DNA of 64,000 nt, taken from NCBI GenBank assembly GCA_945861385.1, contig CAMAUI010000008.1:1-64000 (forward strand), in the 5' to 3' direction. Made by a program: the position numbers and the translations under genes. Positions within the stretch are counted from its first letter, which is position 1; every line of letters begins with the position of its first letter. This DNA comes from Prosthecobacter debontii. Lineage in GTDB: Bacteria; Verrucomicrobiota; Verrucomicrobiia; Chthoniobacterales; Chthoniobacteraceae. The notes under the pieces are model-generated. The model was not told the DNA's origin. It did not search any database and was given only the letters and a program-made list of their open reading frames with translations. Shown in pieces: positions 13,650 to 26,761 of this stretch.

Positions 13650-14191
13650 GGGGTGGTGGATGAAACGGCAATCGCGTTGTCCGCCAAGCTCTATTTGTAA
13701 GCGGGGACGGGCTTGGGCGTGATTGGAAGTGAGTCCACCTGGAGGAGCAGAAAGGGCCGTGGAAGCTGGGGCGAAGGTGTGGAGAGGCGGCGCACAAGGA
13801 GCGGCGACATTCCTGTCGCCGACGCTGGTTGCGCCGGAGGCGCACATGCTCCGGCAAGGTGGCGGGCGGTGGCGAGTGAAGGAAATTTTTTGCCACGAAC
13901 GGTGCGCCGCCGCGTTGCCGAGGGTGTGCGCGCCTCCGGCGCATGTGCGGACGGCGACAGGAATGTCGCCGCTCCCTGCCGCCGCCTGCCCGCTTGCGGA
14001 CCGGAAATCAATCACGCCCGACACAGAAGGAACGATGGTTCTGTAATTTCAACCGGCGGCGGGTTAGTTTCCGGCATGCTTGTTTCCATTCCTGTCCAAA
14101 TTACGACTGCCGCCATGGCCGCATTGCCGGCGCGGCTTGTGGAACCACCGCCTCGCGCAGCTCACTGGCGCTGCGCTGCGGATCTTCTGCC
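13650..14191. other. divergent intergenic region with REP-like palindromes
   Basis: This 542-base gap separates the divergent threonine aldolase and PSD1 genes, so it should hold both promoters. I could not pick a convincing -35/-10 pair. The middle is occupied by a compound inverted repeat, listed separately. Short ORFs called here on both strands translate the palindromes and are not genes. Confidence 0.7.
13798..13975. repeat. compound inverted repeat with nested palindromes
   Basis: The outer arms (13798-13821 and 13952-13975) are perfect 24-base reverse complements. Each arm contains its own hairpin, GGCGACA-TTCC-TGTCGCC. Just inside each arm is a second palindrome: TGCGCCGGAGGCGCA at 13830-13844, and a version interrupted by an extra GC around 13927-13943. 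The arrangement resembles a pair of REP units in mirror orientation (BIME-like). Confidence 0.8.
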
Positions 14192-25185: not shown

Positions 25186-25806
25186 TTACAACTCCACGAT
25201 CTTTATATTGCGATACTCGCACTTCATCACCACGGCGGGGTGGATCTGCAGCCCGATCGGGGCCGCGCCGGAGAATTTCGCATCGGTGTATTCCGACGCC
25301 TTCTGGCCATTGATCCAGCAGGTGAAGGTGTCCCCTTTGGCCTGGATGCGGAAGGTATTCCACTCGCCCTCGGGTTTCATCAGCGTCTTGACTGTCTTCG
25401 CCTGGCCGGCCTCGGGATACCTTTCCTTGCCGCCGGTGTACCAGGAACCGGTCATATCTACCTTCAAGCTGCCAGAAACCCCGAGTTGGAGCTGGATGTG
25501 CGGCTTCCGCATTTCGATCCCGGTATCAACTCCGCGGGGCGTCGTGGAATTCCAGCGCACGTCGAACTCCAGGACAAAGTCGCCGTATTCTTTCTCAGTC
25601 CAAAGGTAGTTCCCCTTCTTCGCCGCGTCGTTTTCCCCGATGAGGACGCCTTCTTCGACGCGCCAGTAGGCCTTCGACGCTTCCGCCTTGAAGCCGGAGA
25701 GATCCTTGCCGTTGAAGAGCGGTGCGAATTTCGGTTCTTCGGCCGCGCTGCGGGAGATGGCCGCAAGTGAGAGGATCAGTGCGAGAGCGAATGGGCGAAG
25801 CGTCAT
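25186..25806 (-). CDS. DUF1080 (3-keto-disaccharide hydrolase-like) secreted protein
   Basis: This 206-residue protein is taken from ATG 25806 (MTLRPFALALILSLAAISRSAAEEP), which begins a clear signal peptide; the track start adds an odd leader. The DUF1080 jelly-roll follows: FAPLFNGKDLSGF at residue 27 onward, WRVEEGVLIGEND, FVLEFDVRWNSTTPRGVDTGIEMR, GEWNTFRIQAKGDTFTCWING, and the closing IGLQIHPAVVMKCEYRNIKIVEL. The family is very common in Planctomycetota and Verrucomicrobiota; members are laminin-G-like and some hydrolyse 3-keto-glycosides. The length is typical of a single-domain member. It stands alone, 166 bases downstream of the metallopeptidase start on the same strand. Confidence 0.9.
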   Translation of the reverse strand: MTLRPFALALILSLAAISRSAAEEPKFAPLFNGKDLSGFKAEASKAYWRVEEGVLIGENDAAKKGNYLWTEKEYGDFVLEFDVRWNSTTPRGVDTGIEMRKPHIQLQLGVSGSLKVDMTGSWYTGGKERYPEAGQAKTVKTLMKPEGEWNTFRIQAKGDTFTCWINGQKASEYTDAKFSGAAPIGLQIHPAVVMKCEYRNIKIVEL

Positions 25807-26203
25807 GGCGCGCACGCTATTCATACCCGCCGACAGCGGAAAGCGATTTTTCGGCGCTGGTGATCTGGCACCCGCGCGGTCCGCGTTCCCCAGCTCTGCG
25901 CCCGGCGCGGGCAACCTTTCCCGCGTCCCTGCAGCACCGCGATGCCCGGATAGCGGCTCGGTGGAAAACCAGCGGATTCGAGAAATCCAGATTCGTTGCA
26001 GCAGTTCGTCGCGGGCGCATTTCAGTTTTTGGCACGCCCATCCGTGCGCCGGAGGCGCAAATGTAGGGTGCTCAAAAACTGGGATGCGCCCGTTCGTCGC
26101 GTGTCATGGCCGCACCTTACTCACTTCGCCCCGGCTTCGCCACTCACCGATGCGCTTCGCGAAAATCGCGCCCATATTTCAGGAAGGCGTTGAAAATTGG
26201 GTG
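25807..26203. other. intergenic region with MITE-like palindrome
   Basis: This 397-base gap lies between DUF1080 and hicA, both on the minus strand. I see no gene. It contains a 78-base hairpin element flanked by a 10-base direct repeat (listed separately). The remaining sequence, upstream of DUF1080, presumably holds its promoter, but I could not pick one out. Confidence 0.6.
26004..26101. repeat. MITE-like hairpin with 10-bp flanking direct repeat
   Basis: A 78-base palindromic element (26014-26091) has imperfect arms GGCGCATTTCAGTTTTTGGCAC and its reverse-complement partner at 26069-26090. The arms centre exactly on the perfect palindrome TGCGCC-GGA-GGCGCA (26045-26059). The element is flanked on both sides by GTTCGTCGCG (26004-26013 and 26092-26101), which looks like a target-site duplication. 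There is no coding capacity. Confidence 0.75.
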
Positions 26204-26422
26204 TCAGCGGAATTCCTCCACATCAATGCCGCTTCCCTCAACGATGTTTTTCAATGTCCCAATCGGGATCGCCTTTGCACCGTGCATCGGCACGATGACT
26301 TGCCTGCCGTCCGCGTGCCGCCACTTCTGATGGCTGCCCGCCTGGCCGGTGAGCGCAAACCCGCTGCGCCTCAGCACGCGCACCACATCTTTCGCGGACA
26401 GGACCGGGAACTTCCTGCTCAA
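26204..26422 (-). CDS. hicA: HicA mRNA-interferase toxin
   Basis: This 72-residue protein is a small dsRBD-like RNase toxin. It shows the full HicA signature: LSAKDVVRVLRRSGFALTGQAGSHQKWRH with catalytic His31 in GSHQKW, then VIVPMHGAKAIPIGTLKNIV. HicA cleaves mRNA and is held inactive by HicB. The start codon is TTG at 26422, overlapping the hicB stop as TTGA, so translation should be coupled to hicB. A downstream start would remove the first beta-strand and is unlikely. It is full length and unbroken, so the toxin may be functional. Confidence 0.93.
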   Translation of the reverse strand: MSRKFPVLSAKDVVRVLRRSGFALTGQAGSHQKWRHADGRQVIVPMHGAKAIPIGTLKNIVEGSGIDVEEFR

Positions 26423-26622
26423 GGCACGGTGAGTTCGACGAGTTTGGCTTTCTTCGGCAGCTTCACATCGCTCGGCTCAAACCACAGCGCCAGGGCTTCC
26501 CTCGCATTCTGGATCGCCTCCTTCTCCGTGTCTCCCGCACTGCCGCAGCCGGGCAGCTCGGGAAATATCGCCGACCAGCGTTTCACCCCGGGATCGAATT
26601 CGATGAGCAATCGCAGTTTCAT
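26419..26622 (-). CDS. hicB: HicB-type antitoxin
   Basis: This 67-residue HicB-family (UPF0150-like) antitoxin has the partial RNase H fold motif FDPGVKRWSAIFPELPGCGSAGDTEKEAIQNAREAL. It binds and blocks HicA. It has no C-terminal ribbon-helix-helix or HTH segment, unlike longer HicB proteins, so autoregulation by this protein alone is doubtful. It precedes hicA and overlaps it by 3-4 bases, the antitoxin-first order. Its ATG at 26622 lies only 13 bases after the stop of a decayed gene tail (26636-26761), which suggests the pair was inserted next to, or replaced part of, another gene. Confidence 0.9.
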   Translation of the reverse strand: MKLRLLIEFDPGVKRWSAIFPELPGCGSAGDTEKEAIQNAREALALWFEPSDVKLPKKAKLVELTVP

Positions 26623-26635
26623 ATTCGGACTCTAC

Positions 26636-26761
26636 TCACTTCACCAAGACTTCGCCAATCCAAGTTCTCTCCCCGCCCTGGTTGTCCTGCACCGAGCAGG
26701 CGATTTGCTTTTTGCCCGTCGAGTCGCATTCATACTCACCGCGAGGATCGGCTGGGCGTGA
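26636..26761 (-). pseudogene. 3' remnant of an unidentified gene
   Basis: A minus-strand frame ending at a TGA at 26636 reads GEYECDSTGKKQIACSVQDN followed by QGGERTWIGEVLVK. It is protein-like in composition and third-base GC, but only 41 codons separate it from an upstream in-frame stop, and there is no start. I take it as the C-terminal tail of a lost gene. I do not recognise the family. It could instead be chance. Confidence 0.4.

Follow-up and report, generated by a model that had tools for sequence, protein, structure and literature searches.

Insertion sequences (IS) of the ISKra4 family have GGG ends and generate a 9 bp target duplication, properties that prompted the test of their ends made here. 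In plants, Pack-MULEs and other non-autonomous MULEs carry Mutator-superfamily ends and a ~9 bp duplication, with unrelated sequences between the ends. Mutator-related prokaryotic elements, among which ISKra4 is p-MULT 4 (Guerillot et al., 2014; PMC3942029), have inverted repeats of 18–39 bp and duplications of 8 or 9 bp, with probable circular intermediates, and promoter targeting has been reported for some ISKra4 members (PMC3942029). The elements described below, with their 9 bp duplication and inverted repeats of about 19–24 bp, lie inside these published ranges.

In the window (the whole 64 kb stretch of DNA that was analysed), positions 26004–26100 have the layout GTTCGTCGC / GGGCGCATTTCAGTTTTTGGCACGCCCATCCG-TGCGCCGGAGGCGCA-AATGTAGGGTGCTCAAAAACTGGGATGCGCCC / GTTCGTCGC. 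This element and its surroundings comprise the following features.

26013–26091, plus strand: MITE of 79 bp with ISKra4-type ends, short form; assigned from its copies, the 9 bp rule and ends equal to those of a complete IS (L208)
26004–26012, no strand: left copy of the target-site duplication GTTCGTCGC, 9 bp; from the sequence and the 9 bp rule of the family
26092–26100, no strand: right copy of the target-site duplication GTTCGTCGC, 9 bp; on the same grounds
26013–26031, plus strand: left terminal inverted repeat GGGCGCATTTCAGTTTTTG; the family consensus GGGCGCATCTCAGTTTTTG differs at one position
26073–26091, minus strand: right terminal inverted repeat GGGCGCATCCCAGTTTTTG (minus-strand reading), one mismatch from the consensus
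26045–26059, no strand: central hairpin TGCGCCGGAGGCGCA, 15 bp; occurs twice in the 286/287 bp copies, flanking the inner repeat
25186–25914, minus strand: 3-keto-disaccharide hydrolase (DUF1080) gene, PF06439, E 7e-33; 5′ end faces the MITE
26204–26422, minus strand: hicA toxin gene, PF07927, E 7.1e-17; stop at 26204, 3′ end faces the MITE
26419–26622, minus strand: hicB-like antitoxin gene, PF15919, E 1.8e-9

The 79 bp hairpin is a genuine MITE: it has no coding capacity, and both of its outer 19 bp differ from the family consensus at a single position. Its termini read GGGCGCA...TGCGCCC, and the symmetric GGGCGC/GCGCCC sets its limits, which corrects to 79 bp the length of 78 bp given in an earlier note that had otherwise described the hairpin, including arms centred exactly on TGCGCCGGAGGCGCA, as we find it. 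The 10 bp direct repeat of that note exists as a duplication but measures 9 bp, the tenth base being the element's own first G, identical by chance. The arms are imperfect, yet the element folds into one long hairpin (DNA fold with flanks, −34.1 kcal/mol, z −5.1 versus shuffles; minus-strand RNA fold, −48.3, z −7.8 versus shuffles). Isolated GTTCGTCGCG-like words are frequent across the 64 kb window; the flanking GTTCGTCGC pair is not a chance pair, since it abuts both ends of the terminal inverted repeats and the sister copies obey the same rule.

The host genome (G000; 4.29 Mb in 174 contigs, 93.7% complete) gave 59 matches to a 98-mer query, and the terminus consensus occurs in it 53 times at three or fewer mismatches, compared with no occurrence of a reversed-pattern control. 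The search for further copies that the earlier note had proposed thus succeeded, most directly with a second 79 bp copy (C6:8962–9040) that is identical to the first at 74 of 79 positions and bears a perfect 9 bp duplication, GAGCGCATA, unlike that of the window copy. Besides these two, more than 12 longer end-paired copies are present, and the elements fall into size classes of 79 bp, about 108–146 bp (interior GCTGCGGGCGGAAGTTCTTAC...GAGCAAGAGC) and 286–287 bp. A 97 bp mosaic without duplication (L099; G000:C65:19365–19461), half resembling the 135 bp class and half the 287 bp class, suggests recombination between size classes. Separately, an IS4-type transposase frame (L188; G000:C96) is split by a short hairpin-like insert that is missing in a related copy (L186).

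For 53 elements gathered by their ends alone, the adjacent 9-mers were compared, with shuffled pairings as the control. The duplication is perfect in 15 of the 53 and has one mismatch in nine more (24/53 at one mismatch or fewer), whereas shuffled pairings gave 0.5% perfect and 0.35% one-mismatch pairs (∼0.8% at one mismatch or fewer). Exact duplications of other lengths from 3 to 14 bp number zero or one each, such that the only peak is at 9 bp. As the flanks played no part in selecting the elements, this test is independent of the selection. Several elements have no recognizable duplication. That many further copies bear differing 9 bp duplications upholds the description of the window element as MITE-like with a target-site duplication.

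The HicBA module that had been said to adjoin the element is confirmed by Pfam for both HicA and HicB, and the segment at 26640–26760 on the minus strand, upstream of hicB, resembles a decayed coding-sequence tail, again as the note had it. On the other side, the hydrolase gene probably has its true start at an ATG near 25.81 kb. The proposal of an insertion hot spot, in contrast, finds no support: the window contains a single member of the family, 53 ends per 4.29 Mb correspond to less than one element expected per 64 kb, and the flanks of 35 elements revealed neither a target motif nor an informative position. When the flanks in the window were joined to represent an empty site, no orthologue was found among 39 further genomes from the host's taxonomic family; the related genomes lack the locus, and an empty site was therefore not recovered. 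Elsewhere in the window, a long inverted repeat at 13795–13978 (52 nt arms, 83% complementary) has GGCGACAGGAATGTCGCC arms with the TGCGCCGGAGGCGCA hairpin in both; it is without ISKra4-type ends and looks like a REP-type doublet.

The termini are not found at two or fewer mismatches in nine genomes of the same genus. Across 84 980 GTDB species genomes, the exact 19-mer terminus occurs in 47 stretches, mostly in Verrucomicrobiota MAGs, against ∼2 expected by chance according to our estimate from the size of the collection. The carriers include JASHPN, JAKAFL, JANYCF, Methylacidiphilum DYDC and Limisphaerales, and some carrier genomes have from tens to about 150 termini. The copy number is unusually high in G066 (WYBW, Verrucomicrobiia VER1), with ∼148 termini at three or fewer mismatches, derived mostly from one 213 bp element with the end variants GGGCGCATCTCAGTTTATT and GGGCGCATCTCATTTTCTT.

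The same ends are present on IS that encode ISKra4 transposases. The profile NF033572 matched four of eight genomes tried (G061, G062, G070 and G073). At L197, the C-terminus of an ISKra4 transposase is encoded and a MITE terminus overlaps the stop codon; a search of the phylum with this fragment matched 12 of 388 genomes. The search yielded L208, which comes from another genome in the host's class and contains a complete element of 1477 bp (positions 510–1986) with a perfect 9 bp duplication, CCCACTCAC, and ends GGGCGCATCTCAGCTTCTT and CTAAAAACTGAGATGCGCCC that agree with the family consensus at 16 of 19 and 18 of 19 positions. Its transposase reading frame is interrupted, and the C-terminal half matches ISKra4 (NF033572, E 3.1e-40), scoring below the cut-off as half a protein. 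L209 encodes an intact transposase of 484 residues (211.5 bits, compared with the curated NF033572 cut-off of 205) beside a matching end, with the far end missing; the transposases of L212 and L213 also exceed this cut-off. More distant full-length relatives (L212, L213, L214, L217, L218 and L220) start with GGGCGCAT, and the duplication of L218 is CCGCGTTTT. Set aside were two apparent IS-sized end pairs in G069, which resolved into short elements lying next to each other and chance pairings, with no transposase, and L201, whose end-like match is weak. The host assembly itself has no NF033572 match and no L197-like protein; lacking an ISKra4 transposase in this genome, we place the transposase source outside the assembly.

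From the ends, the copy number, the 9 bp duplications and the near-identical ends of a complete IS that carries an ISKra4 transposase gene, all directly observed, we conclude that the 79 bp hairpin is very probably a non-autonomous MITE with ISKra4-type ends, moved in trans by an ISKra4 transposase with a 9 bp target-site duplication. Acting in trans, a DDE transposase of the ISKra4 family would bind the ends and mobilize the element, perhaps via a circular intermediate as in reports on the superfamily, and insertion at a 9 bp staggered cut would leave the duplication GTTCGTCGC. The transposase that presumably moves the short elements may once have been present in the host lineage; it is missing from the assembly.

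The interiors are not similar to this IS. No interior gives a match to the L208 element below E 0.01, and the window element is thus not an internal-deletion derivative of an IS; our claim concerns shared ends. BLAST clustering of 52 interiors, with a permissive joining threshold, gave 17 groups, seven of them having members with a 9 bp duplication at two or fewer mismatches, where the two 79 bp copies, with interiors too short to cluster, are counted as one. The 286/287 bp form is a composite, TGCGCCnnnGGCGCA-GCAGAAATTAGCC...GGCTAATTTCTGC-TGCRCCnnnGGCGCA. The window element matches the outer 47 + 47 bp of a 286 bp copy at 45 of 47 and 43 of 47 positions, with one hairpin left, and most simply the window copy would be a 286/287 bp member minus its central Y1-transposase-type repeat, deleted between the two TGCGCCnnnGGCGCA hairpins. 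The same composite layout recurs in other genera (L112, L114 and L137), which suggests that the long form is older and that the 79 bp form arose by this deletion; the reverse order, with the 79 bp form the earlier, is possible.

Cores similar to that of the 286/287 bp form also occur outside these ends in the host genome, on C34 and on C14, where they flank a Y1_Tnp gene. This gene (L245:1501–2290; G000:C14 near 8629) encodes a Y1 (IS200-like) transposase (PF01797, E 3.7e-20) and is flanked by AATTAGCCGGTGG repeats, which are of the same kind as the core of the 286/287 bp elements, and a REP/Y1-type origin is likely for the inner repeat of the 287 bp form. A rival account would make the whole window element a REP/BIME-type palindrome that a Y1 (IS200-like/RAYT) transposase has spread, with the flanking 10-mers a coincidence; its long hairpin form would suit such a palindrome, and the central hairpin TGCGCCnnnGGCGCA adjoins the repeat that flanks the host Y1 gene. 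To our knowledge, however, Y1 enzymes create no target duplications, and the strict 9 bp duplication of the family speaks against Y1 mobilization of the outer element, as do outer ends common to ISKra4 elements and to unrelated interiors. For the element as a whole we regard this origin as very improbable.

A functional hairpin under selection rather than a mobile element (a terminator, an mRNA stabilizer or a hicBA antisense RNA) is more improbable still. The strong RNA fold lies on the minus strand, which is the hicBA coding strand, and the element is ∼110 bp past hicA, but copies adjoin unrelated genes, each with its own duplication, and Rfam gave no match for the element. A putative secondary effect of the minus-strand RNA hairpin on hicBA or the hydrolase gene is possible. 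Movement of the MITE by an IS4/IS5-type (DDE_Tnp_1) transposase is just as hard to credit: the host genome has four such genes and the window element's ends bear what we take to be a vague resemblance to IS4/IS231 ends, but the terminus is absent from all four loci, whose ends do not match, and is instead present on ISKra4-type elements.

With mobilization in trans by an ISKra4 transposase as the preferred reading, the elements add a new family to a kind already known. A search of papers, mostly non-subscription ones, on ISKra4 with MITEs or on Verrucomicrobiota MITEs gave no description of this family. More tentatively, and on balance short of what we would expect to be confirmed, one ISKra4/Mutator-type end pair may have repeatedly captured unrelated interiors across Verrucomicrobiota, often hairpin repeats including those of Y1 transposases, each then spreading as a miniature family in the manner of Pack-MULEs; the window element would be such a composite minus its captured core. 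A likely mobilizing enzyme is identified for widespread, apparently undescribed short repeats of Verrucomicrobiota, the exact ends and duplication length can now be used in annotating them, and the family offers a bacterial test case for transposase ends framing unrelated cargo. Caution is advised with gene-adjacent hairpins in these genomes, which may turn out to be remnants of transposons rather than regulatory RNAs.

By membership the window element is a MITE with ISKra4-type ends, and it would work like a MITE mobilized in trans by an ISKra4 transposase. With the ISKra4 family, a Mutator-superfamily group (PMC3942029), it shares the terminal inverted repeats of the Verrucomicrobiota members and the 9 bp duplication; it differs in its size of 79 bp, in having no transposase and in an interior unrelated to the IS. 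The bacterial MITEs NEMIS/Correia, RUP, Nezha and ERIC (PMC3733652) are likewise short and gene-free, with inverted ends, a target-site duplication, many copies and a strong hairpin, but their ends and transposase family are others, and in the present case a single end sequence encloses several unrelated interiors throughout the phylum. The TIR repeats of tyrosine transposases (TIRYT/RAYT; PMC3733652) are comparable in that the inner repeat of the 286/287 bp copies resembles the Y1-flanking repeats of this genome, whereas the window element retains at most one hairpin of this repeat and has the ends of a different enzyme. The analogy with plant Pack-MULEs and non-autonomous MULEs, drawn from general background, is limited to the Mutator-type ends, the ~9 bp duplication and the unrelated interiors, and does not extend to captured genes.
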